A stretch of 64,000 bases of DNA from positions 2,480,001 through 2,544,000 of the forward strand of contig NZ_CP012257.1 of NCBI RefSeq assembly GCF_001277175.1, written 5' to 3'. The position numbers were made by a program, and so were the translations under genes. This document shows positions 2,511 through 62,626 of this stretch, piece by piece (within the stretch, counting starts at the first letter, position 1; every line of letters starts with the position of its first letter). The notes below the pieces were generated by a model, which saw only the letters and a program-made list of their open reading frames with translations, had not been told where the DNA came from and ran no database searches. The DNA comes from Cronobacter universalis NCTC 9529 (lineage in GTDB: Bacteria > Pseudomonadota > Gammaproteobacteria > Enterobacterales > Enterobacteriaceae).

Positions 2511-4190
2511 GTGAACACACAGTATCTCTCGCAAATCCTGCCTTTCCGCGCGCTGGTGGAAGCCTGCTGGCGTGAAAAATATACCGTTTCCCGGCTGAGC
2601 CGCGATCTGATTGCCGGTATTACCGTCGGCATTATCGCTATTCCGCTCGCGATGGCGCTGGCTATCGGCAGCGGCGTGCCGCCGCAATACGGTCTTTATA
2701 CCTCCGCCATCGCAGGCATCGTCATCGCACTCAGCGGCGGCTCGCGCTATAGCGTCTCGGGGCCGACCGCCGCCTTTGTGGTCATCCTCTACCCCGTCGC
2801 GCAGCAGTTCGGGCTCTCGGGACTGCTGGTAGCGACGCTGCTCTCCGGCGTCTTTCTGGTGCTGTTCGGCCTGGCGCGCTTCGGGCGGCTGATCGAATAC
2901 ATTCCGCTGCCGGTTACGCTGGGCTTTACCTCCGGGATCGGCATCACCATCGCCACCATGCAGATCAAGGATTTCTTCGGCCTCGACATCGCGCATATGC
3001 CGGAGCACTACCTGCCGAAAGTGGCGGCGCTGGCGATGGCCCTGCCCGGCCTGAACCCTGGCGATGCGGCGATCGGTATCGTCACGCTGGGCGTACTGAT
3101 TATCTGGCCGCGTCTGGGCATTCGCCTGCCGGGGCATTTGCCGGCGCTGCTGGCGGGCTGCGCGGTAATGGGCGTCGTCCATCTGCTGGGCGGCAATGTC
3201 ACGACCATCGGCTCGCGTTTTCACTGGTTGCTGGCGGACGGCACCCAGGGAAGCGGTATTCCGCCGCTCCTGCCGCAACTGGTGCTGCCCTGGGATCTGC
3301 CGGGGTCGTCGTTTACGCTGAGCCTTGATGCGCTGCGCGCGCTGCTGCCCGCCGCGTTTTCCATGGCGATGCTGGGCGCCATCGAATCCCTGCTGTGCGC
3401 CGTGGTGCTGGACGGCATGACCGGCACGCGCCACAACGCCAACAGCGAGCTTATCGGCCAGGGGCTCGGTAATTTGATTGCGCCTTTCTTTGGCGGCATT
3501 ACCGCCACCGCCGCCATTGCCCGTTCGGCAGCCAACGTGCGCGCGGGCGCGACATCGCCTGTCGCCGCCGTGTTTCATGCGTTGCTGGTATTGCTGGCGC
3601 TGTTGGCGCTGGCCCCGCTGCTCTCCTGGCTGCCGCTCTCAGCGATGGCGGCCCTGCTGCTGATAGTGGCGTGGAACATGAGCGAGGCGCATAAAGTCAT
3701 CGGCCTCCTGCGCCGCGCGCCAAAGGATGACATCGTCGTGATGCTTATCTGCATGTCGCTGACGGTGCTGTTTGATATGGTGATTGCCATCAGCGTTGGG
3801 GTGGTGCTGGCTTCGCTGCTTTTTATGCGCCGGGTGGCGCGCATGACGCGGCTCGCGCCGCTGAATGTGTCGGTGCCGGAGGATGTGCTGGCCGTGCGGG
3901 TAACGGGGCCGCTGTTCTTCGCTGCCGCGGAAGGCGTCTTCACACCGCTGCTGACGCAGGCGGCAGGAAAACGCGTTATCGTGATGCAGTGGGACGCGGT
4001 GCCGGTGCTGGACGCCGGCGGCCTCGACGCCCTGCAACGCTTTATTGAACGCCTGCCGGACGGCTGCGAGCTGCGCATCTGTCATCTCGAATTCCAGCCG
4101 CTGCGCACGCTGGCGCGCGCAGGCGTACAGCCCATCCCTGGGCGTCTTGCTTTCTTCCCGGATCGCGACGCAGCCTTAGCGGCCCTCTGA
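2511..4190 (+). CDS. dauA: SulP-family C4-dicarboxylic acid transporter DauA
   Basis: DauA (formerly YchM) is an inner-membrane SLC26/SulP transporter that takes up succinate, fumarate and aspartate aerobically at acidic pH. The 559 residues equal the E. coli length. About 400 residues are hydrophobic membrane segments, including the conserved [15 protein letters not shown] stretch. A C-terminal cytoplasmic STAS domain (roughly residues 440-559) ends in PGRLAFFP. The GTG at 2511 is chosen because it aligns with the E. coli N-terminus (FRAL..ACW). The gene stands alone between the prs terminator and a convergent MerR gene. Confidence 0.95.
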
Positions 4191-4191
4191 A

Positions 4192-5238
4192 TCAACGCGC
4201 AGGCGCAGCCCCCTGCGCCTGCATCAACGCGCCAAACGCCTGCTGCAGCCAGCCGAGCGTTTCGGGCGTCATCCAGGTGCCTTTCGAGAGATGCGGCTCC
4301 CGCATCATCGCCTCACGAAATTTCTGCTGGGTCTGCGGGTTTTCGCCAGCGAACGAGGTAAACAGCGTCAGCCAGTGCGTCGCAATCCCGCGCGCTTCTT
4401 CGCTTGATGGCGAGAGCTGCGTCTTCACCGCCGCATGCAGCTTCGCCACCAGCGGCGGCCATTCCATCATGCGATCGAAATAGTGCTCGCGGGTGAAAGC
4501 ATACTCTTCAGGCGTCAGATAACGCTGATAAATGGCGAGTTTGCTTTCGGCAAACGCGTGCGTTATCCAGTCGATTAACGCCGGAGTGATACCGGTTTTA
4601 TCGCGCAACGCTGGCTCCGTGGCGTGCATCTCATTGAGGCGCGTCAGAAACTCGGGGTTGCCCGCGGTATCCCGCTCCAGCGTTTCCATCCAGCGCGTGG
4701 CGAGCGCCTGCGCAGCCGGGTCGCTGACCGGCATTCCCTGCGCCATCGCGTCGTTAACGTCCTGGACAAGCGCGGCCCATTGCGTCTCGCGCTCGGTACT
4801 TTCCTGCGCAAACGGCAGCTGTTTCAGCTCTTCCTGTGAAAACCATTTCTCATACATCATCATTAGCTCCAGTGTTTTCAGCCACTCCTGAAGATCCGGC
4901 TCATCGCCTGCCAGAAGCCCTTCACGCAGCGCCACCAGCCGGTCGCGCAGTATCGCGGTACGGGCAAGCTGGGCGTTAAGCTGTGTGATCTGCGTGTCGA
5001 TGACTTCCGGCAGCGTCATGCTGCCGCTCTCCAGGCACTCCCGCACCTGCGCCAGGCTCAGCCCCATCCGCGTCAGCGCCTGAATATGATGCAGGCGCTG
5101 AATATCGTCGCGGTTATAGAGCCGGTAGCCGGCGGCCGTGCGGCCGGAGGGAATGAGCAGTCCAAGGCTTTCATAATGATGCAGCGTGCGAACCGTCAGA
5201 CCAGACCGTTTCGCGAGTTCACCTACCTGCAACAACAT
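4192..5238 (-). CDS. MerR-family regulator with two TipAS-like ligand-binding repeats
   Basis: The first 75 or so residues of this 348-residue protein are a MerR winged helix ([20 protein letters not shown]), followed by a coiled-coil dimerisation helix at about 80-125. Residues 129-230 and 237-336 align with each other (Y..(F/Y)....EE..., then GNP or ENP, then (M)TP..L.W....AF), a tandem duplication of a TipAS-like domain. TipA proteins bind drugs there and activate their own and efflux promoters; the ligand here is unknown. The ATG at 5238 follows AGGAGAGG; in-frame upstream codons run through the promoter and are rejected. It is convergent with dauA, two bases away. Confidence 0.8.
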
Positions 5239-5267
5239 AACGCCTCTCCTCTTCCCTTGCGAAGCCC

Positions 5268-5298
5268 ACTGTGAGCCCTGACGTAACGTAAGGGTCAA
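5268..5298 (-). promoter_or_regulatory. MerR-type autoregulated promoter/operator
   Basis: On the minus strand a -35 box TTGACC (5293-5298) and a weak -10 CACAGT (5268-5273) are separated by 19 bp. This overlong spacer contains the dyad CCCTTACGTTACGTCAGGG (5276-5294). Long spacers with a dyad are the hallmark of promoters twisted open by MerR-family activators. The site lies 30-60 bp upstream of the regulator's start, so autoregulation is likely. The sequence is seen; the function is inferred. Confidence 0.7.
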
Positions 5299-5309
5299 GA
5301 GCGTATCAT

Positions 5310-5341
5310 AAAAAAAGCTCCCGACCGGCGGGAGCTTTTTT
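5310..5341 (-). terminator. Terminator after ychH (structurally bidirectional)
   Basis: The inverted repeat AAAAGCTCCCGACCGGCGGGAGCTTTT has a stem of about 10 bp, with A-runs on one side and T-runs on the other. It closes the minus-strand ychH gene and lies just upstream of the MerR promoter. Confidence 0.85.
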
Positions 5342-5355
5342 CACAGCGTTTAGCA

Positions 5356-5628
5356 TTAGCTGGAGTGATGATTGCGCTTACAGCGTTTGTCATAGTGGCG
5401 CACCCACCAGTAGCGGTCGCATACCTGTTCATGACCGCCGACGCGGGCGCCAGCGAGCCACAGCACCGCGCCGACAAAAATACTGAATATCGCGCCATGC
5501 GCGAAAAACTGCGGCAGGTTAAGCTGCGGCAGCTGGTTGAGAATGGAGTAACTGACACCGACAACCATGACCACTAACCCCAGCCCCATCAGAAAGTTGC
5601 CAAGCAACGACGCGTTTTTGCGTTTCAT
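5356..5628 (-). CDS. ychH: Stress-induced inner-membrane protein YchH
   Basis: YchH is a small inner-membrane protein (here 90 residues) of unknown mechanism that in E. coli is induced by cadmium, peroxide and acid and affects biofilm formation. Two hydrophobic segments are visible (about residues 10-28 and 40-60), followed by the conserved polar tail GGHEQVCDRYWWVRHYDKRC. The ATG at 5628 follows GGAGGTGACT at ideal spacing; a GTG two codons upstream is part of that ribosome-binding site. It is divergent from pth, as in E. coli. Confidence 0.93.
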   Translation of the reverse strand: MKRKNASLLGNFLMGLGLVVMVVGVSYSILNQLPQLNLPQFFAHGAIFSIFVGAVLWLAGARVGGHEQVCDRYWWVRHYDKRCKRNHHSS

Positions 5629-5895
5629 AGTCACCTCCGGAACAGTGGGTGGGAAAGTATCCCTGCGATTTATGTGTAAAGTATAGGCAACGCTTATATA
5701 TAAGGGTTGCGCCAGGGATCACATTTATGAACATTCTGAGGACGAAACTTTACAAATAACCCAATGAATTACATGAATATCTAATGATTCATGATAGTGA
5801 TTATTGTTTTTCTCCCAGCGAGGCGACGCGGTTTTGTGATCTGCGCGACACCACAGTAAACTACGCCGCAAACAGAGGTTTTCAGGAACAGTAAC

Positions 5896-6480
5896 GTGAC
5901 GATTAAACTGATTGTGGGGCTGGCGAACCCGGGCGCGGAATACGCCGCCACCCGCCATAACGCGGGCGCGTGGTATGTGGATCTGCTGGCGGATCGCTTT
6001 CGCGCGCCGCTGAAAGAGGAAGCCAAATTTTTCGGCTATACCTCGCGTATCAACGTGAACGGCAACGATGTGCGTCTGCTGGTGCCGACCACTTTTATGA
6101 ACCTGAGCGGCAAAGCCGTGGCGGCGATGACCACCTTTTACCGTATCGCGCCGGATGAAATTCTGGTGGCGCATGATGAGCTGGATCTCCCGCCGGGCGT
6201 GGCGAAGTTCAAGCTGGGCGGCGGTCATGGCGGGCATAACGGCCTGAAAGACATCATCAGCAAGCTGGGCAATAACCCTAATTTTCACCGTTTACGCCTC
6301 GGTATCGGGCATCCGGGCGATAAAAACAAAGTTGTCGGATTTGTGCTCGGCAAACCGCCGGTAAGCGAGCAAAAGCTGATTGACGACGCCGTGGACGAAG
6401 CGGCGCGATGCACCGAAATCTGGCTGCAGGACGGCTTAACCAAAGCCACTAATCGTCTGCACAGTTTTAAAGCGCAATAA
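5896..6480 (+). CDS. pth: Peptidyl-tRNA hydrolase
   Basis: Pth cleaves the ester bond of peptidyl-tRNAs released prematurely from ribosomes and recycles the tRNA; it is essential in E. coli. The 194 residues equal the E. coli length. Conserved features are the Asn11 loop (GLANPGAEY), catalytic His21 in TRHNAGAW, the HDELDLPPG segment with its catalytic Asp, and [13 protein letters not shown]. The start is GTG, as in E. coli. The gene is followed by ychF after a 139-bp gap, the conserved pth-ychF arrangement. Confidence 0.97.
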
Positions 6481-53688: not shown

Positions 53689-55599
53689 TTACTGCCGCGC
53701 CGCGTCGGTGAGAAAGCGCGCCGCCTCGCCGATATCGCGGGTGCGCGGCGTCGGCGGCAGGCTTTTCAGGAACACGGCACCGTAGGGGCGCATCACCAGG
53801 CGGTTGTCGCAAATCACCAGCACGCCGCGGTCGTCGACGTCGCGGATAAGCCGCCCGACGCCCTGCTTGAGCGTGATGACCGCCTCCGGCAACTGGACTT
53901 CATCAAACGGATCGCCGCCGCGCAGGCGACAATCTTCCATCCGCGCTTTCAACAGCGGATCGTCCGGCGAGGTGAACGGCAGTTTGTCGATAATCACCAG
54001 CGACAGCGCGTCGCCACGCACGTCTACGCCTTCCCAGAAGCTGCTTGTCGCCACCAGCAGCGCGTTGCCCGCGCTAATAAACTGCTCCAGCAGCTGGCTT
54101 TTGCTGGTTTCGCCCTGCAAAAGCACCGGCAGCGTCATGGTGGCGCGGAATTGCTCGGCCAGGTCACGCATCATCGCGTGTGACGTGCAGAGCATAAAGC
54201 AGCGCCCCTGGTTGGCTTCAATCAGCGGTTGTAACATTCGCGCCAGCGCTTTTCCGGCCTGCGGCTGGTTAGTCTGCGGCAGGCCGCGCGGCACGCAGAG
54301 CAGCGCCTGGCGGGCATAATCGAACGGGCTTGGCAGCAGCAGGGTTTGCGCCTCGTGAATACCAAGCCGATCCGTGAAGTGATGCAAGTCGTCATTCACC
54401 GAGAGCGTGGCGGAGGTGAAAATCCAGCTGCCGCCCTTTTCGGCGATCACGTCCTGGAATTTATCCGCGACGGTAAGCGGCGTGAGGGCCAGCGTAAAGT
54501 GGCGCGAGTTGCACTCATACCAGTAGCTGTAGCCCGGCTGATTGATCTCTTTTAAGCGTTTAAGGCGCGCGCGGTAGAGCGTGGCGCGCTCAAAGGCGGC
54601 GTCCAGCAGCGCCGAGCGGCCAAGCGACAGCTTCGCCACGTCGTAGCAGAGCTCCAGCGCGTCATCGAGCAGCAGCAGCGCGCGGCTGATGGAGGCATCC
54701 GCCAGCAGTTCGCGCAGGTTGCCGCGAAAGCCGGGGTCACCCAGCTGGAGCCTGAAATCCTGCGTGCTTTGCGCCAGACGGTCGGCGCACTTTTGCAACT
54801 GCTGGGTATCTTTCACCTCGGTGCGGTAGGCGATGATAATGTCTCTCGCGAGATCAAGCAGCTGGCGGCTGGAGAGCGACTGGCCGAAATACTGGCTGGC
54901 GATATCCGGCAACTGATGGGCTTCGTCGAAAATAATCACCTCAGCCTCCGGGATAAGCTCCGCGAAGCCGCTCTCTTTGACCACCATATCGGCGAGAAAC
55001 AGGTGATGGTTCACCACCACCACGTCGGCTTCCATCGCCTTTTTACGCGCTTTCACCACAAAGCAGTCTTTATAGAGCGGGCAGTCGGTGCCAAGGCAGT
55101 TATCGTTGGTGCTGGTGACGAGCGGCCAGACGGGGGCGTCTTCCGCCACGCGTCCGCAGGTGCTGATATCGCCATCGACGGTTTCGTTGGCCCAGCCGCG
55201 CAGCTGGATAACGTCGCTCAAGGTCTGTACCGGCAGATCGCCGCCCGCCAGCGCCTGTTGCTCCAGGCGCTCAAGGCACAGGTAGTTGGAGCGCCCTTTC
55301 AGGAGCGCCAGGCGGCCTTTGTACTCCAGCGCTTTGGCGACCGTGGGCAGATCGCGGCTGTAGAGCTGATCCTGCAACGCTTTCGAGCCGGTGGAGACAA
55401 TCACTTTCTTACCGGCGCGCAGCGCGGGCGCCAGATAGGCGTAAGTTTTCCCGGTCCCGGTGCCCGCTTCCACCACCAGCGGCTTCGCGGCCTCAATGGC
55501 GGCGCTGACCGCCTGCGCCATCTGGCGCTGCGGCTCACGCGGTTTAAAGCCGGGAATCGCGTTGGCCAGCTGGCCATCTGCTGCAAAATCGTCTGTCAC
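53689..55599 (-). CDS. yoaA: DinG-like Fe-S DNA helicase YoaA
   Basis: YoaA is an XPD/DinG-type 5'-3' helicase that pairs with the clamp-loader subunit HolC in repair of stalled replication. The 636 residues include Walker A EAGTGTGKT (44-52), DEAH (225-228) and four cysteines spaced for a 4Fe-4S cluster (about 108, 168, 173 and 179). The C-terminal helicase half has GVGRLIRD. Its start is divergent from yoaB. Confidence 0.96.
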   Translation of the reverse strand: MTDDFAADGQLANAIPGFKPREPQRQMAQAVSAAIEAAKPLVVEAGTGTGKTYAYLAPALRAGKKVIVSTGSKALQDQLYSRDLPTVAKALEYKGRLALLKGRSNYLCLERLEQQALAGGDLPVQTLSDVIQLRGWANETVDGDISTCGRVAEDAPVWPLVTSTNDNCLGTDCPLYKDCFVVKARKKAMEADVVVVNHHLFLADMVVKESGFAELIPEAEVIIFDEAHQLPDIASQYFGQSLSSRQLLDLARDIIIAYRTEVKDTQQLQKCADRLAQSTQDFRLQLGDPGFRGNLRELLADASISRALLLLDDALELCYDVAKLSLGRSALLDAAFERATLYRARLKRLKEINQPGYSYWYECNSRHFTLALTPLTVADKFQDVIAEKGGSWIFTSATLSVNDDLHHFTDRLGIHEAQTLLLPSPFDYARQALLCVPRGLPQTNQPQAGKALARMLQPLIEANQGRCFMLCTSHAMMRDLAEQFRATMTLPVLLQGETSKSQLLEQFISAGNALLVATSSFWEGVDVRGDALSLVIIDKLPFTSPDDPLLKARMEDCRLRGGDPFDEVQLPEAVITLKQGVGRLIRDVDDRGVLVICDNRLVMRPYGAVFLKSLPPTPRTRDIGEAARFLTDAARQ

Positions 55600-55729
55600 A
55601 CTGCCCCCTGGTTAAATTGCCAGTGATTATGTCAGGGCGGCCACGCTTACGCCAGCCGAACAGATGACGGCGCTCGCGCTTTATGGCAGGCTTGCACCCT
55701 GCTAAACAGAACAGGAAAAGGAAACAGCG

Positions 55730-56074
55730 ATGACAATCGTGCGTATCGATCCCGCAGATCGTTGGTCTGACGCGGTGATTCACAACCAGACGATTTACTA
55801 CACCGGCGTGCCGGAAAATCTCGATGGCGACGCTTACGAACAAACCGCCAATACGCTGGCGCAAATCGACACCCTGTTAACCGCGCAGGGCAGCGACAAA
55901 TCCCGCATTCTTGACGCCACGATTTTTCTGGCCGACGGCGACGACTTCGCGCTGATGAATAAAGCGTGGGATGAGTGGGTGGTGGCAGGCTGTGCGCCGG
56001 TACGCTGCACCGTGCAGGCCCGCCTGATGAATCCGCGCTATAAAGTGGAAATCAAAATCATCGCCGCCGTGTAA
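55730..56074 (+). CDS. yoaB: RidA-family protein YoaB
   Basis: The 114-residue protein belongs to the RidA/YjgF/UK114 family, whose members hydrolyse reactive enamine/imine intermediates of amino-acid metabolism. The active-site arginine is present in the APVRCTVQARL segment. It equals E. coli YoaB in length and in divergence from yoaA. The ATG follows AAGGAAA. It is convergent with the five-gene accessory operon, 12 bases away; E. coli has yoaC here instead. Confidence 0.94.
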   Translation: MTIVRIDPADRWSDAVIHNQTIYYTGVPENLDGDAYEQTANTLAQIDTLLTAQGSDKSRILDATIFLADGDDFALMNKAWDEWVVAGCAPVRCTVQARLMNPRYKVEIKIIAAV

Positions 56075-56086
56075 TACCCATGGCCG

Positions 56087-56749
56087 TCACCGTTCGCCGG
56101 TGGCGGTTTCTTCTCTTTCTGTCTTCTGCGTGTTTTCACATCGCAAGGCGCCTTGCGCCAAAGAACGAGCCAGCATCCTACGCGCCAGCATACCAGCCAG
56201 CAGCGTCAGCGCGACGCCGCCAACCAAATCAACAAAAAGATGCCGGCGCAGCTGCAAAATCGACACGCCGATCGCCGCGCCCCAGAGCACAGCGGCCAGC
56301 GTATAGCGCCACTGTCCGCGTTTACTGATGCCCCAGACCATCAGCAGCGTGAGCGCCATATGCAGCGACGGGAAGCAGTTCTGCGCAGAGTCCACCGCCA
56401 GCAGGATACGCAGCGCGTCAGCGCTGATGCCCTCGCCGCTGACGGCGGGGTACGCCATCGTCGTGGGCCACGCCAGATAGATAGCTCCGGCAAACAGCGC
56501 CGCCAGTTGGGTCGCGCGCATCAGCCATTTCACTTCTGCGCGCGGGGTCAGCCAGTAGCCTGCGGGAACGAGCAGGAAAAACGACATATAGAGCCAGATG
56601 GCCGAGGGCGTGAAATCCAGCAGCGTGTCGAACCACAGCGGCGGCAGCTTATGTCCGGCGCGCTGGAGCAGATCGGTCGTGAAATAGACCACGCCGACGC
56701 TTCCCCACCCCAGCAGCAGGGATTTCAGGCGATAACCCGTTTCGTTCAT
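56087..56749 (-). CDS. PAP2-superfamily membrane phosphatase/phosphotransferase-like protein, last gene of the lipid-type operon
   Basis: The 220 residues contain about five or six hydrophobic segments. The phosphatase motifs are FPSLHMALTLL and RRHLFVDLVGG, with the catalytic histidines; the first (KxxxxxxRP) motif is not evident, as in the inositolphosphotransferase-like PAP2_3 group. A cytoplasmic Arg-rich tail follows. The ATG at 56749 overlaps the stop of the upstream gene by four bases. It presumably acts on a lipid phosphate or transfers a head group made with the operon's products; this is inference. Confidence 0.82.
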   Translation of the reverse strand: MNETGYRLKSLLLGWGSVGVVYFTTDLLQRAGHKLPPLWFDTLLDFTPSAIWLYMSFFLLVPAGYWLTPRAEVKWLMRATQLAALFAGAIYLAWPTTMAYPAVSGEGISADALRILLAVDSAQNCFPSLHMALTLLMVWGISKRGQWRYTLAAVLWGAAIGVSILQLRRHLFVDLVGGVALTLLAGMLARRMLARSLAQGALRCENTQKTEREETATGER

Positions 56750-58032
56750 ACGCGCTTCCTCATGCGCACGATACGCCGCCGCTTGGCCCCGGCGGCGGCT
56801 TCCGGGACCTGCGATAAAAGCGTCCAGTGGAGGACGCCGCACGCCACGCCCTGTTGTTCAAAAAGCGCGATCAGCGCGGCCTGCGCCTGCGCGCGCTGCG
56901 CGTCGTCGGCCTCGACGATAAGCGTCAGGCGCTCCGCGCCGTGCTGGATAAGCCGGTAATCCGCCGAGAAGGGCAGAACGCGCGCCAGCGCCCGGTTGCA
57001 GAGATCGCCGAAAATCGCGCGCTCGCCGCCCTGGCCATCCGGCAGCAGGAGTTGATCGTCCTCTCGCCCTTCAATATGCGCCAGCGCCAGCGACGGATCG
57101 CCGCAGGCGCACGGCGTCTCGCGTACCGCCAGCACATCGTCCAGCCGGTAACGCACGATGGGCTGCGTGGTGCGGGTAAAATCGGTAATGACCGGGACAA
57201 AACGGCGCGCATCCAGCCACTCTTTTTCAACATGGATAAACGCCTCGTTCAGGTGCAATACCCCGTGCGCGCAGGTGGCGGCGAGAAAACCTTCGGTCGC
57301 CTGATACACTTCGCCGACGTCAGGAAAAACGTTTTCCAGCAGCGCGCGGTCCTGCGCGTCGAGCACTTCCGCCACGGAAATGACTTTCTTTGGCGCAATC
57401 TTCAGCTCGCCTGCCTGGACGGCCAGTGCCAGCGCGCGCAACACCTGCGCAGGCGCAACGATAATCGACGGCGATTCGGCTTCAAGCCGTGTGAGCAGCG
57501 CCTCGAAGGGCTCAAAGAGATCGTAAAAACCGAGGCTCAGCCAGCGGCTATTCACGCTCTGATAGAGGTTATTATCGGCGCGCAAAAAGAGCGCCACCCG
57601 CTCGCCTGCAAAGAGGCCGTCAGGCAGCATTTTCGCGAGCATGGCGCCTGCCCACAGCGCCTGTTCCTGCGGGCTGACCGCGAAAATCCCGCGCCGCCCG
57701 GATGTGCCGCTCGACAGTCCCACGCTGTAGCGCCCGACCGTCGGCGTAAAATTGCGGTCGTTTTCGCTCTTAAGCGCGCACGCCATCACGTCCGCCGCTT
57801 TCAGACCGCCGGTGTTCATCTCATCGAAATGCGCCATCATCCGCGCTTTGTCCATCCCCGGCCATTCGCGAAACGGCAGCGTACTGTAACGCCTGAACCA
57901 CGGGCTTTTCGCCAGCACGCGCGCGGCAAACCGCCCAAGCTGTTTTTGCTGGTAGCGCTCCAGCGCCGCGCGGCTGTGAAAACGCAGACGTTTAACACGG
58001 AAATAGTGCCAGAGCATGGCGAGCTTATTCAC
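56746..58032 (-). CDS. CoF390-synthetase/PaaK-like adenylate-forming enzyme
   Basis: The 428-residue protein belongs to the F390-synthetase-related branch of the ANL adenylating superfamily (with phenylacetate-CoA ligase and LuxE). The nucleotide loop is VGLSSGTSGRRG (about residues 103-114), YQATEG is the A5-like motif, and TQPIVRYRLDDV the hinge-region aspartate motif. It probably activates a carboxylic acid as an acyl-AMP. The GTG start at 58032 overlaps the preceding stop (GTGA), and its own stop overlaps the PAP2 start. Confidence 0.82.
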   Translation of the reverse strand: MNKLAMLWHYFRVKRLRFHSRAALERYQQKQLGRFAARVLAKSPWFRRYSTLPFREWPGMDKARMMAHFDEMNTGGLKAADVMACALKSENDRNFTPTVGRYSVGLSSGTSGRRGIFAVSPQEQALWAGAMLAKMLPDGLFAGERVALFLRADNNLYQSVNSRWLSLGFYDLFEPFEALLTRLEAESPSIIVAPAQVLRALALAVQAGELKIAPKKVISVAEVLDAQDRALLENVFPDVGEVYQATEGFLAATCAHGVLHLNEAFIHVEKEWLDARRFVPVITDFTRTTQPIVRYRLDDVLAVRETPCACGDPSLALAHIEGREDDQLLLPDGQGGERAIFGDLCNRALARVLPFSADYRLIQHGAERLTLIVEADDAQRAQAQAALIALFEQQGVACGVLHWTLLSQVPEAAAGAKRRRIVRMRKRV

Positions 58033-58835
58033 AGGTCGCCCTCGTGCGCGAGACGGATCTCCGCGCCGCCGTCGCGCCAGAGCTGGTGCAGTAAGTCGAG
58101 CGTGCGCGCAGCGGCCGCCGGATCGGCAATCACCAGATTCGCAAGCCGCGACGGGCCGCGCTGTTCGCGGTAGCTGACCGGCGACCAGGCGGCGTCGGCC
58201 GCGAGCAGCACCCAGCCGTTATCCGTCAGCACAAACGCGCCGATATGCCCGGCGGCGTGGCCCGGCAGCGACACCAGTAACACCTCGCCGTTGCTGCCTG
58301 GCAATAAGAAGCCAGTATCAAACGGCGCGAGCGCGGCGGGCAACGCCACGCGCTCAAAGCCCTCGATAAAGCTGACCGCGTTTTCAAAATTCTCCGGGAT
58401 AAGCCCTGGCACGAACGCCTGGCGCAGCGCGGCAAACCCGCGCAGCGTGCGCGTCTGCGCCCAGCCTTCTCCCGAGCAGATAAAGCGGTTATCCGCGAAA
58501 TCGCGCAGCCCGGCGATATGGTCGGCGTGAAAGTGCGAGAGGATCAGCGCGTCGATGTCAGCAGGGCGATAGCCTTTCGCCGCAAGCTGGCGCACCAGCG
58601 ACTGTTCCGGGGAGAAGTAAACCGGCGTCACGCGGCGATAAAGTTGATAGATCCCGCGGCGGGTGTAGTCGTCAAACCACGAGGCGTAGCCGGTATCCCA
58701 CAGCCAGCGTTTGCCGCCCGCTTCGATAAGGCTCGCGCGGGCCGGAAATTTACAGGTTTTCCATGCCGCGCCCTTGAGCGCGATACAGCCCAGATGGGTG
58801 CAATAACCCGTTTCAAACGTCGTAATCGTGGCCAT
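58029..58835 (-). CDS. MBL-fold hydrolase, AHL-lactonase-like
   Basis: The 268-residue metallo-hydrolase has metal ligands SHFHADH (His101, His103, Asp105, His106), LPGHAAGH (His193), Asp214 in AADAAW and a C-terminal AHEGD histidine, the ligand order of AiiA/AttM-type lactonases. In its operon it could open a lactone, hydrolyse a thioester or release the product. The ATG directly follows the stop of the reductase gene with no gap, and its stop overlaps the next start. Confidence 0.84.
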   Translation of the reverse strand: MATITTFETGYCTHLGCIALKGAAWKTCKFPARASLIEAGGKRWLWDTGYASWFDDYTRRGIYQLYRRVTPVYFSPEQSLVRQLAAKGYRPADIDALILSHFHADHIAGLRDFADNRFICSGEGWAQTRTLRGFAALRQAFVPGLIPENFENAVSFIEGFERVALPAALAPFDTGFLLPGSNGEVLLVSLPGHAAGHIGAFVLTDNGWVLLAADAAWSPVSYREQRGPSRLANLVIADPAAAARTLDLLHQLWRDGGAEIRLAHEGDL

Positions 58836-59840
58836 TCAGCTTTTCCTTTCGCGCAGCCAGGCGCCGGTAAGCCGCACGCCGTCCGCCAGCGACACCGGCG
58901 GTCGGTAGCCGAGCCGGGTGATGGCTTTCTCCTGGCTTAACGTCATATCGAAACTGACGGTGCCCGCGCTGTAGCGCGTCAGGCGCGGTTCCGTGCCGGT
59001 GAGATGTCCGTGGATTTCCATGCCCTGCGCCACAAGCGCGAGCAGCGGCCAGGGCACCGACGCCACCCGATACTGTAACCGAAGCTCATCGCGCAGCAGA
59101 CGGCCGAGCATCTCCACCAGCCGCTGCGGCTCATGATTGGTAATATTGAACGCTTCACCGGAGAGGAGACCCGGCTGTTCGGTGGCGAGACGCATCGCAT
59201 GCACCACATTGCCGACCCAGGTTAAATCCAGCAGCGCCTCGCCGCCGCGCGGCAGACGCAGCACGCCGCGGTCGGCCTCAAGCTGGCGCAGCAGGCGTGG
59301 AATGATGACGCGATCGTGCGCGCCGAACAGCCCGCGCGGGCGCAGAATAATAAATGTGACATGCGTAAATCGCCGCGCCGCCGCCTGAATCACCTGCTCC
59401 GCCGCATATTTACTGCTGGCGTAGTGGCAGGCGAAACGGGCAGCCCGGTAGTGTTCATCCACATTGTGGTGATGACGGAAATCGAAATAGATAGCGGGCG
59501 TGGAGATATGAATAAAGCGCGTGACGCCTGCCCGCGCCGCGGCATGGGCCAGCCGTTCGGTAGCCGCGACATTCACCGCGTGAAACGCCTGCGCGCTGCC
59601 CCACGGCGACGATTTCGCCGCGCAGTGCCAGACCACATCGCAGCCCTGTATCAATGCATCGCAGCGGGCATCGTCGGCCTGCGCCAGCTCCAGCGGCACG
59701 AAGTGCGCGCCGAGCGCGGCCAGTTCAGCCCCGGCCTTTTCGTCACGTCCGGTCGCGCGCACGTCGCAGCCCTGCGCGAGCAGCGCCTCGACCGCGTTGC
59801 GGCCAAGCCCGCTGGTGGCGCCCGTCACCAGATATTTCAT
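58836..59840 (-). CDS. NAD(P)-dependent epimerase/3-beta-hydroxysteroid-dehydrogenase-like reductase (OleD-like)
   Basis: The 334-residue extended SDR has the cofactor loop VTGATSGLGR (residues 5-14), HCAAKSSPWG, and catalytic Tyr140 and Lys144 in CHYASSKYAAEQ. The 3-beta-HSD/OleD-type architecture fits reduction of a 2-alkyl-3-keto acid made by a head-to-head condensing enzyme. Its start overlaps the stop of the ketoacyl-synthase gene by four bases. The substrate is inferred only from context. Confidence 0.84.
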   Translation of the reverse strand: MKYLVTGATSGLGRNAVEALLAQGCDVRATGRDEKAGAELAALGAHFVPLELAQADDARCDALIQGCDVVWHCAAKSSPWGSAQAFHAVNVAATERLAHAAARAGVTRFIHISTPAIYFDFRHHHNVDEHYRAARFACHYASSKYAAEQVIQAAARRFTHVTFIILRPRGLFGAHDRVIIPRLLRQLEADRGVLRLPRGGEALLDLTWVGNVVHAMRLATEQPGLLSGEAFNITNHEPQRLVEMLGRLLRDELRLQYRVASVPWPLLALVAQGMEIHGHLTGTEPRLTRYSAGTVSFDMTLSQEKAITRLGYRPPVSLADGVRLTGAWLRERKS

Positions 59841-60844
59841 GGCAGCAGCACCATACCGGCGAGCGTTAACCCGGCGGCCGTGCCGACCAGCATCAGCGGC
59901 TCGCCCGTTTTTACACGCCCGGTGATGAACGCTTCGTGCAGCGCGGTGGGAATCGATGCCGCCACCTGATTGCCGTGCTGGCGGTAGATATCCACCAGCA
60001 CGTCAGGCTTCACTTTAAGGCGTTTGCGCATATGCTCGAGCGACAAATGGCTCGCCTGGTGCGGCACCACGGTGGCGATGTCATCAAGCGTTAGCCCGGC
60101 GGCGTCAAGCAGCCGCTGCCAGAACCCATCGATCAGCAGCGAAGCCTGGCGGAACAGCGCTTTGCCCTGCATCCGGAACAGAAAATCGCTCTCCTCCATC
60201 CCGGCGCGGGGATTTTTACGCGTGCCGCCGGCGCGGATCTCGCACAGTTCGCTGCCCTGCGGGTAGGTTTCCGCGTTCATCGCCAGAATGCCAGAGCGAC
60301 CGTCGCCCGCTTCAACAATGGCGCAGGCGGCGCCGTCGCCGAAAATCAACGAGGACTCCTCATGCCGCCAGTCAATGCCGCGCGAGGCGATATCGGCTGA
60401 AACAATGGCGATACGGCGGTAGCTGCCGCTGGTTAACAGCGCCGAGGCCACCTGCATGGCGCTGATAAAGCTCACGCAGCTGCTGTTGATGTCGAACCCC
60501 GCCGTACCGGCCGGTAAGCCCGCGGCTTTCATGACGTGAACCGCCGAACAGGGCAGCGCCTGGACGGCGATGGCCGAGGCGGAGATCAGCAGATCGATGG
60601 AGTCCGGATCAATGGCGTGACGACGGCAGGCGTCGTGCAGCGCGGCGGCGGCGAGCGCGGCCTGACTGTCGTCGCTCGCGGCATGGTAGCGGTGCAGAAT
60701 GCCTGAGCGGCGCTCGACATATCCCGTCCGCTTGCCGAGGCGGCTGTCGAGTTCGGCGGACGTAATAAGGTGTTCAGGCAGCGCCTTGCCGGTCGCGATG
60801 ATGTTCAGCCGCGAGGCTGGCGGAGAGTGAGGTGTAAAGGCCAT
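59837..60844 (-). CDS. 3-oxoacyl-ACP synthase III-type condensing enzyme (FabH/OleA-like), first gene of the operon
   Basis: The 335-residue thiolase-fold enzyme has an intact Cys-His-Asn triad: Cys123 in DINSSCVSFI, His262 in VVPHQASH and Asn292 in HGNQVAAS. The FGDGAACAIVE and GTAAGLTLAGMVLL motifs are also present. It is distinct from the housekeeping FabH and likely condenses two acyl chains or an acyl chain and a malonyl unit. It heads five coupled genes; the 140 bp upstream, toward yoaH, should hold the promoter. Confidence 0.88.
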   Translation of the reverse strand: MAFTPHSPPASRLNIIATGKALPEHLITSAELDSRLGKRTGYVERRSGILHRYHAASDDSQAALAAAALHDACRRHAIDPDSIDLLISASAIAVQALPCSAVHVMKAAGLPAGTAGFDINSSCVSFISAMQVASALLTSGSYRRIAIVSADIASRGIDWRHEESSLIFGDGAACAIVEAGDGRSGILAMNAETYPQGSELCEIRAGGTRKNPRAGMEESDFLFRMQGKALFRQASLLIDGFWQRLLDAAGLTLDDIATVVPHQASHLSLEHMRKRLKVKPDVLVDIYRQHGNQVAASIPTALHEAFITGRVKTGEPLMLVGTAAGLTLAGMVLLP

Positions 60845-60985
60845 GACGCTCTGTCCCTAAGCTCAACGTCCCTGCCGGACAGGGACGTAAATGAAGTGAT
60901 ATCTGACGTTATTATGCGTGGTGCGCACGATAACATGTCAGCAGGGACAAAAAAATTCTCGCTACCTTTTCCTGGAGCCGGAGGC

Positions 60986-61171
60986 TTATTCCTCTTCGTC
61001 CTCGTCTTCAAAGCGCGCGACGATGCGATCGCCTTTATGGGTGGCGCGGATCTCCTGGGCCACCTGCGCGATGGCCTCGCCGCTGCTCATGCCCTGCGAC
61101 ATCAGCTCCTGAATTCGTTCGACCGCTTGCTGTTGTTGTTCATGGGTGAGAGAAGGTAAACCTGCAAACAT
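60986..61171 (-). CDS. yoaH: UPF0181-family small protein YoaH
   Basis: The 61-residue hydrophilic protein matches E. coli YoaH (59): [20 protein letters not shown], then [17 protein letters not shown] and an acidic tail EDEDEEE. The function is unknown. It keeps its E. coli position, divergent from pabB. The start follows AGGAGT. Confidence 0.93.
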
Positions 61172-61261
61172 CGCTGACTCCTGTTACATTGATGAGTTCA
61201 ATTATTTCACGCCGGGCGCGCGGGCGCCAGACGCCCCGCGCCGTTGTTAGCTGTCGTCCTG

Positions 61262-62626
61262 ATGAATACGAACCAGACTCCTGAACTGATCTCCCTGCCC
61301 TGGCGCGCCGATGCGCTGCAACAGACCTTTTCTGCGCTACAACACCAGCCGTGGGCGATGCTGCTGCACTCGGGTTTTGCCGAGCACGCCCACAACCGTT
61401 TCGACATTCTGGTAGCCGACCCGCGCGTCACGCTGACCACGCGGGGGGCGCTCACTATGACGCAAGACGCAGAGGGTTGCCAGCAGAGCGACGACGATCC
61501 GCTGTGTCTGCTGCACGCGGCGCTGGCGCGTTTTCCGTTTTCGCCCGCGCCAGATGAGGATTTCCCGTTTCAGGGCGGCGCGCTCGGGCTGTTTGGCTAC
61601 GATCTCGGGCGGCGCTTCGAACGGCTGCCATCACAGGCCAGCGCCGATCTCAACGCGCCGGATATGGCGGTCGGCATCTATGACTGGGCGCTGGTAGCCG
61701 ATCATCACCGCGAGCGCCTGACGCTGCTCTGCTACGGCGATGCCAGCGCGCGTCTCGCCTGGCTTGACGCACAGCAGCCGGTTGAGACCGCGCCGTTTCG
61801 CTTAACCACGCCCTGGCGCTCCAACATGAAGCGCGAGGAATATGGCGAGAAATTCCGCCAGGTTCAGGCGTATCTGCTAAGCGGCGACTGCTATCAGGTC
61901 AATCTCGCGCAGCGGTTTTGCGCGCAGTACGAAGGCAGCGAATGGCAGGCGTTTTTAAGGCTCAATGCCGCTAACCGCGCCCCGTTCAGCGCCTTTCTGC
62001 GCCTGCCGGATCAGGCGATTCTAAGCCTGTCGCCGGAGCGGTTTATCCGTCTGCACGACAGCGCCATCGAGACGCGCCCCATTAAAGGCACGCTGCCGCG
62101 CTTGTCCAATCCCGAGGACGATGCCCGCCAGGCTTTAAGGCTCGCGAACTCGCCTAAAGATCGCGCCGAAAATCTTATGATTGTCGATCTGCTGCGTAAC
62201 GACATTGGCCGCGTGGCGACGCCTGGCAGCGTCAAAGTGCCGGAGCTGTTTGTGGTCGAGCCGTTCCCGGCGGTGCATCATCTGGTCAGCACCATTACCG
62301 CGACGCTGCCGCCGTCGCTTCACGCCACCGATCTCCTGCGCGCGAGCTTCCCCGGCGGCTCTATCACCGGCGCGCCCAAGGTGCGGGCGATGGAAATTAT
62401 TGAGGAACTGGAGCCGCAGCGGCGCAACGCCTGGTGCGGCAGCATCGGTTATCTCAGCTTCTGCGGCGCGATGGACACCAGCATTACCATCCGCACGCTG
62501 ACCGCCGACGGCGGCGCGCTGTACTGCTCTGCGGGCGGCGGCATCGTGGCGGACAGCGAGGAAGCGGCGGAATATCAGGAAACTTTTGATAAAGTTAACC
62601 GTATCCTGCACGCATTAGAGAGGTGA
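61262..62626 (+). CDS. pabB: Aminodeoxychorismate synthase component I PabB
   Basis: PabB converts chorismate and PabA-derived ammonia to 4-amino-4-deoxychorismate for folate synthesis. The 454 residues match E. coli (453). The chorismate-binding domain has [23 protein letters not shown] with the catalytic lysine, [10 protein letters not shown] and GGSITGAPK. The ATG at 61262 is chosen by alignment although no strong ribosome-binding site is visible. nudL starts three bases after its stop codon. Confidence 0.95.

Follow-up and report, generated by a model that had tools for sequence, protein, structure and literature searches.

A five-gene ketosynthase operon of Cronobacter universalis, reduced by deletion from an eight-gene operon and probably serving to build an unusual fatty-chain molecule

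Gene Organization of the Operon

We analyzed a five-gene operon in a 64,000-nucleotide stretch of Cronobacter universalis NCTC 9529 (contig NZ_CP012257.1, positions 2,480,001 to 2,544,000; hereafter the window, in whose numbering positions are given). The operon occupies positions 60844-56087, all on the minus strand, and is flanked by yoaB (55730-56074, plus strand) and yoaH (61171-60986, minus strand, named by synteny with Escherichia coli K-12). The first gene (59837-60844) encodes a 335-aa ketoacyl synthase III-type ketosynthase (KAS) resembling MxnB/CorB, with Cys123, His262 and Asn292, and with Leu97 at the position of OleA Glu117. It is followed by a 334-aa extended short-chain dehydrogenase/reductase (SDR) of the OleD/3beta-HSD type (58836-59840; Tyr140-x3-Lys144), a 268-aa metallo-beta-lactamase-fold hydrolase (MBL) with a complete seven-residue metal site (58029-58835), a 428-aa PaaK-type adenylate-forming enzyme (ANL; 56746-58032), and a 220-aa PAP2_3 membrane phosphatase/transferase (PAP2; 56087-56749) whose C-terminal tail has been changed by a deletion. 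Pfam matches were ACP_syn_III for KAS, Epimerase/3Beta_HSD for SDR, Lactamase_B for MBL and PAP2_3 for PAP2. ANL matched no Pfam family at E <= 0.001 and scored 566 bits against the NCBIfam model TIGR02304 (F390 synthetase-related protein; cut-off 251.9). The closest named matches came from C. malonaticus and C. sakazakii (93-95%).

Three 4-bp overlaps and one zero gap join the five genes: ATGA between KAS and SDR (59840-59837), TGA followed directly by ATG between SDR and MBL (58836/58835), GTGA between MBL and ANL (58032-58029), and ATGA between ANL and PAP2 (56749-56746). They form one coupled operon, as a preliminary description of this DNA had stated, and its placement of the operon between yoaB and yoaH, where E. 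coli K-12 carries yoaC, also agreed with the K-12 genome. Nothing convincing for yoaC was found in the window by tblastn (best E 0.05), no Rfam family reached gathering scores in 55000-62000, and a sigma-70 scan returned no promoter-like site.

The catalytic residues of the synthase, reductase and MBL enzyme, described earlier as intact, proved to be so and were kept in relatives as well. The KAS cysteine was present in 86/86 aligned sequences, and the histidine and asparagine in 85/86, the exception being a Pseudomonas caricapapayae locus (L003, 5173-6192) in which the KAS frame is shortened or shifted. The SDR tyrosine and lysine and all seven MBL metal ligands (HxHxDH plus His, Asp and His) were found in 89/89, and the PAP2 Pro-Ser-x-His motif with the later His and Asp in 69/69. 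In ANL, Glu247 was conserved in 89/89, Asp298 in 86/89, Gly112 in 87/89, and two cysteines and Lys417 each in 88/89.

A Reduced Copy of an Eight-Gene Cronobacter Operon

The ANL gene was present in 7/7 Cronobacter genomes examined. Two fatty acid desaturase genes accompanied it in 5/7, and none was found in the window's genome or in a second genome (G1024, locus L135). The five desaturase-bearing loci (L129, L130, L131, L136 and L137) share the order KAS-SDR-MBL-ANL-PAP2-FA_hydroxylase-desaturase-desaturase and the yoaB-pabB location of the window operon. When the window was compared with L130 by blastn, the alignment broke at window position 56113 and restarted at 56168, while the L130 coordinate jumped from 3014 to 6317. 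The window lacks a segment of about 3.3 kb that holds the FA_hydroxylase-type gene and both desaturases, with a scar of about 54 bp (56114-56167, minus strand), defined by these breakpoints, in its place within the PAP2 tail. The window PAP2 ends in EETATGER, which resembles the last codons of the lost desaturase (ESTATDERQR in L129), so that PAP2 now runs into the end of that gene. The window operon is thus a deletion derivative of the eight-gene operon. L135 aligned with the window through the deletion point without a break over 1,401 bp and has an identical tail, and the representative of a C. malonaticus PAP2 cluster (P0241, 37 members) carries the same altered tail. The simplest reading of these sequences is one deletion in the common ancestor of the carriers.

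The ratio of nonsynonymous to synonymous substitution rates (dN/dS) between the window and L135 was 0.097 for KAS, 0.086 for SDR, 0.174 for MBL, 0.276 for ANL and 0.119 for PAP2, with upper 95% bootstrap limits of 0.145, 0.166, 0.419, 0.460 and 0.225, respectively; the flanking genes gave 0.028 (yoaB) and 0.137 (pabB). Since both genomes carry the deletion, they diverged mostly after it, which means that constraint persists in the reduced operon. By these ratios the remaining five genes are under purifying selection, with ANL the least constrained.

Distribution and Add-on Genes

A scan of genome contigs gave 153 encoding loci, and locus counts refer to the best 80 of them. These span Serratia, Pseudomonas, Pectobacterium, Erwinia, Escherichia, Citrobacter, Providencia, Xenorhabdus, Snodgrassella, Azoarcus, Burkholderia and others. 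SDR, MBL and ANL were present in 80/80 and KAS in 77/80 (missing from L069, L070 and L071). The KAS-SDR-MBL-ANL core was collinear in 77/80 loci, and PAP2 was present in 64/80, lying upstream of KAS in four Xenorhabdus. The other add-ons were FA_hydroxylase (60/80), desaturase (58/80), a second SDR (16/80), the glycosyltransferases GT21 (16/80) and GT28 (15/80), and a protein of 180 aa lacking any Pfam assignment (13/80). Strict His-box patterns were found in 56/60 hydroxylase-type proteins and 89/94 desaturases; eight of the nine misses retain H-xx-HH-type boxes and one (L025) has none. At L025 (9873) the frame of the hydroxylase-type gene is shortened or shifted.

Even sampling recovered TIGR02304 proteins in 40/295 genomes of the family and 2/369 of the class (E <= 1e-60), and in 8/398 of the phylum (E <= 1e-50; seven of these scored above the cut-off), the window's own genome being counted each time. 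Four distant genomes (L124-L127) retain the core order at 30-42% identity. Rieske-type and ATP-grasp-like genes adjoin the core in L126 and L127, with a GNAT-like gene also in L126; named by eye from translations and not by family search, they may represent a third decoration set.

With a query from Escherichia whittamii, the core was detected in 672 of 5,426 complete E. coli genomes (~12%) at 90-95% identity over at least 80% of the query. In E. coli strain 4/4 and in Nissle 1917 it belongs to a seven-gene operon (core, PAP2, a sterol-desaturase family gene and a desaturase) flanked by narI and a tyrosine tRNA. K-12 shares these flanks and lacks the operon at that site, and no remnant was seen between its narI and tyrV; this absence may explain why the pathway was missed. 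Between E. coli and E. whittamii, dN/dS was 0.07-0.15 across the seven genes and 0.011 for the neighboring narI. The two genera thus carry the same cassette at unrelated positions, yoaB-pabB in Cronobacter and narI-tRNA in E. coli.

Among the four core proteins, pairwise distances were correlated (r = 0.79-0.90, 42 sequence sets), and in the core tree, several deep forks of which are weak, Pseudomonas nests among enterobacterial sequences. Together, these patterns suggest that the cassette moved as one unit. An origin in mobile elements was considered and rejected, because the KAS-SDR stretch had no match among 50,697 phage records and 4 of 72,556 plasmid records matched the operon, none across >80% of it. 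Two E. coli records labeled as plasmids carry the operon (NZ_CP141085 and CP054248, 386 and 542 kb) and could be either chromosomal pieces or a true transfer. A degraded copy was seen in a 2.1-Mb genome (G559, L128, 5000-16000): SDR and MBL are present among transposase-like frames, no KAS match passed 1e-4, and the ANL frame has 351 aa only.

Leader and Other Features of the Window

A leader upstream of KAS (60853-60948, minus strand) is conserved in 7/7 Cronobacter. Relative to the KAS start it carries GTCCC at -104 and -42 and GGGAC at -28 and -13, and these elements, two of each type, hold near-fixed positions in all seven genomes. In a hairpin at 60887-60867, both arms of the stem vary (TG/CA to CG/CG). 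The GGGAC copy at -13 overlaps a possible Shine-Dalgarno sequence, and for this reason a translational switch is conceivable.

Elsewhere in the window, GC content falls to 35% at 44-45 kb, compared with 53-66% in other parts, and the segment 43001-46000 was perhaps acquired. The sole FA_hydroxylase match in the window's genome is a 239-aa frame far from the operon (G000:C1:3586266-3586643), which we would guess to be a carotenoid hydroxylase.

Relationships of the Core Enzymes

The preliminary description read the operon as a variant olefin/beta-lactone or lipid-signal pathway modeled on OleABCD. An acyl-chain pathway is still probable; the OleABCD part did not hold, and the analogy between the synthase and OleA was not supported. 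The position of the OleA base Glu117, which lies at the dimer interface, is Leu or Ile in 86/86 aligned KAS, while an OleA-like control (L123) has Glu there. PRK09258, which we take to be the OleA family model, scored KAS at 99.6 bits, below its cut-off of 285. An OleA-type mechanism was rejected on these two grounds. MxnB was the first solved ketosynthase in phmmer (166 bits, against 81 for PqsD), and MxnB/CorB also came first when the KAS model was compared by VIA-align, which re-aligns Foldseek's own list only and so cannot rule out other folds. KAS shares 33-34% identity with MxnB/CorB, together with an N-x-S/T-C-L/V motif and a hydrophobic residue in place of the OleA Glu. The KAS model has pLDDT <50 at residues 200-227 and 93-98, the latter including Leu97. 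By sequence and VIA-align, the synthase thus appears nearest to MxnB/CorB, which are two-chain alpha-pyrone enzymes, and not to OleA. MxnB/CorB work for type I polyketide assembly lines (myxopyronin and corallopyronin; PMC5724707), whereas the present KAS sits among SDR, MBL and ANL genes.

For the reductase the earlier assignment stood in part. Two OleD models were its best NCBIfam matches, yet at 147 and 142 bits they fell short of their cut-offs of 580. The ANL enzyme is F390 synthetase-related and the hydrolase is of the MBL fold, as described earlier, and none of the five proteins matched an OleB- or OleC-named model in Pfam or NCBIfam, a search that covered these proteins and not the rest of the genome. 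The metal ligands of the MBL protein are those of a dinuclear MBL lactonase/thioesterase fold; curated lactonase models scored it below their cut-offs, and it matched no PqsE-named NCBIfam model. The structural kin of the ANL model are PaaK, NatL2, AjiA1 and ClxA; because that model is weak (pLDDT 62, TM ~0.4), no substrate argument was drawn from it. Although ANL passes the TIGR02304 cut-off, the family name implies no F420 chemistry.

TIGR02304 is a named family for which we found no tested function in the open-licence PubMed Central (PMC) literature. PMC5467263, PMC5501837 and PMC2649909, in which 'F390 synthetase' occurs, deal with annotation or other proteins, as does PMC10850344. A virulence link through a 'Coenzyme F390 synthetase' transposon mutant of Pseudomonas syringae pv. 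actinidiae (PMC9823363) was not used; IYO_RS29530, two tags away, is a chorismate-family gene, so IYO_RS29540 probably does not belong to this operon. No characterization of the cluster appeared among the open-licence PMC matches listed, with subscription papers and biosynthetic-cluster databases outside that scope. We regard it as a specialized lipid or polyketide-like operon that combines known folds in a new way.

Proposed Function and Alternative Explanations

Members of this operon family probably make an unusual fatty-chain molecule and decorate it. Our preferred reading, held tentatively, is that the operon is a cassette building the scaffold of a lipid derived from acyl chains, which membrane enzymes then decorate. 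The MxnB/CorB-type KAS would be loaded at Cys123 with a medium or long acyl chain, which it would condense with a second type II fatty acid synthesis (FAS II) thioester, either beta-ketoacyl-acyl carrier protein (ACP) or malonyl-ACP. SDR would reduce the beta-keto group, and MBL would hydrolyze a thioester or lactone to the free acid, which ANL would adenylate and join to a small acceptor. PAP2 would act on the membrane-embedded product, transferring or removing a head group that carries phosphate. In most relatives examined, the hydroxylase-type enzyme and desaturases would then oxidize the chains, and in others a GT21/GT28 pair would glycosylate the product; the window lineage, having lost the oxidizing genes in one deletion, would still make a simpler product that is selected for.

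This scaffold reading is supported by the collinearity of the core, its conserved catalytic residues and correlated distances, the kinship of KAS to the two-chain MxnB/CorB, the lipid-type add-ons and the low dN/dS. A lipid is favored over a diffusible aromatic product because two alternative add-on sets carry ceramide head-group enzyme classes. In eukaryotes, ceramide receives head groups from enzymes of these two classes, inositol phosphorylceramide (IPC) synthase-type PAP2 and GT21. PAP2 relatives carry the name IPC synthase in their source records, and the IPC synthase, ceramide glucosyltransferase, desaturase and hydroxylase classes of eukaryotic sphingolipid tailoring all recur as add-ons; the backbone genes, however, are KAS III, SDR, MBL and ANL, and the window operon has no serine palmitoyltransferase-like gene. 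Several observations weigh against a membrane-decorated lipid scaffold. The choice of the 80 loci rested on ANL similarity, and some contigs stop close by, which biases the fractions. PAP2 is absent from 16/80 loci, and the core stands alone in Snodgrassella (L061) and several Xenorhabdus, so the membrane steps would be optional. Foldseek placed E. coli FabH first for KAS and CorB eighth, and the tree grouping of KAS with MxnB/CorB had support of just 80/86. Finally, the PaaK-type structural matches of ANL presumably act mostly on aryl acids, so an aromatic acid would fit this enzyme better, and an aryl substrate is possible.

A bolder and unlikely extension of the scaffold reading is that the products are two-chain, ceramide-like envelope lipids whose backbone is made by KAS III/SDR/MBL/ANL instead of serine palmitoyltransferase, with swappable head-group and chain modules. 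It is with the same reserve that we would name E. coli, Cronobacter, Serratia, Pseudomonas, Xenorhabdus and Snodgrassella as the hosts. The modules, conceivably and no more firmly, would be IPC synthase-type PAP2 with hydroxylase and desaturases, or GT21/GT28 glycosylation.

Among the alternatives, the best surviving, though still unlikely, is a single-chain route in which KAS is a malonyl-ACP-using FabH variant, the starter is an unusual acid activated by ANL, and the product is a special fatty acid, optionally desaturated or hydroxylated. The intact Cys-His-Asn triad, the FabHs as best Foldseek matches and the scores of KAS against FabH subfamily models (222 and 207 bits) speak for it; these scores lie below the cut-offs of 249 and 292, and a separate FabH (479 bits) is encoded elsewhere in the window's genome.

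In the alkylquinolone pathway, PqsA activates an aryl acid (anthranilate), PqsD elongates it and PqsE hydrolyzes a thioester; the operon unites the same three enzyme classes (ANL ligase, KAS III and MBL hydrolase). A comparable module, with ANL activating an aryl or similar acid, KAS elongating, MBL hydrolyzing the thioester and SDR reducing to yield a diffusible signal or antibiotic, would also suit the resemblance of the ANL model to aryl-acid ligase structures. We consider it quite improbable: KAS is nearer to MxnB than to PqsD, the MBL protein lacks a PqsE-named match, and the added genes are SDR and, frequently, membrane desaturases, a hydroxylase-type enzyme and PAP2, not aromatic-tailoring enzymes.

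Doubtful too, and slightly more so, is an alpha-pyrone synthase operon, with a KAS that would join two beta-ketoacyl chains into a pyrone in the manner of MxnB/CorB and further genes that would feed into this pyrone or alter it. MxnB/CorB are its top solved relatives and share its motif and hydrophobic residue; the identity is nonetheless low, and direct pyrone release would leave reductase, hydrolase and ligase with little role.

A variant OleABCD olefin or beta-lactone pathway is highly improbable. An OleD-like SDR, an ANL enzyme and a KAS of the same superfamily are common to both, but the Glu117 equivalent is absent from every aligned KAS, the OleA-family score is low, ANL is PaaK-type and not OleC-named, and MBL does not have the alpha/beta hydrolase fold of OleB; the operon family, moreover, adds PAP2 and desaturases. 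Mapping five genes onto the Ole pathway also started from an incomplete set, three genes having been lost from the window lineage by deletion. That the window operon has lost its function and is decaying, as three of eight genes gone and a replaced PAP2 tail might suggest, is scarcely credible against dN/dS of 0.09-0.28 between two deletion carriers (upper 95% limits 0.15-0.46) and intact active sites.

Significance

E. coli is regarded as making unsaturated fatty acids via an anaerobic FAS II route, so strains in which a lipid-like operon includes a hydroxylase-type enzyme along with a membrane desaturase are noteworthy. The core represents an intact, selected pathway in ~12% of complete E. 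coli genomes, including that of the probiotic Nissle 1917. The natural deletion in two Cronobacter genomes offers a ready comparison, in which the core is the same and the chain-oxidizing genes are absent.

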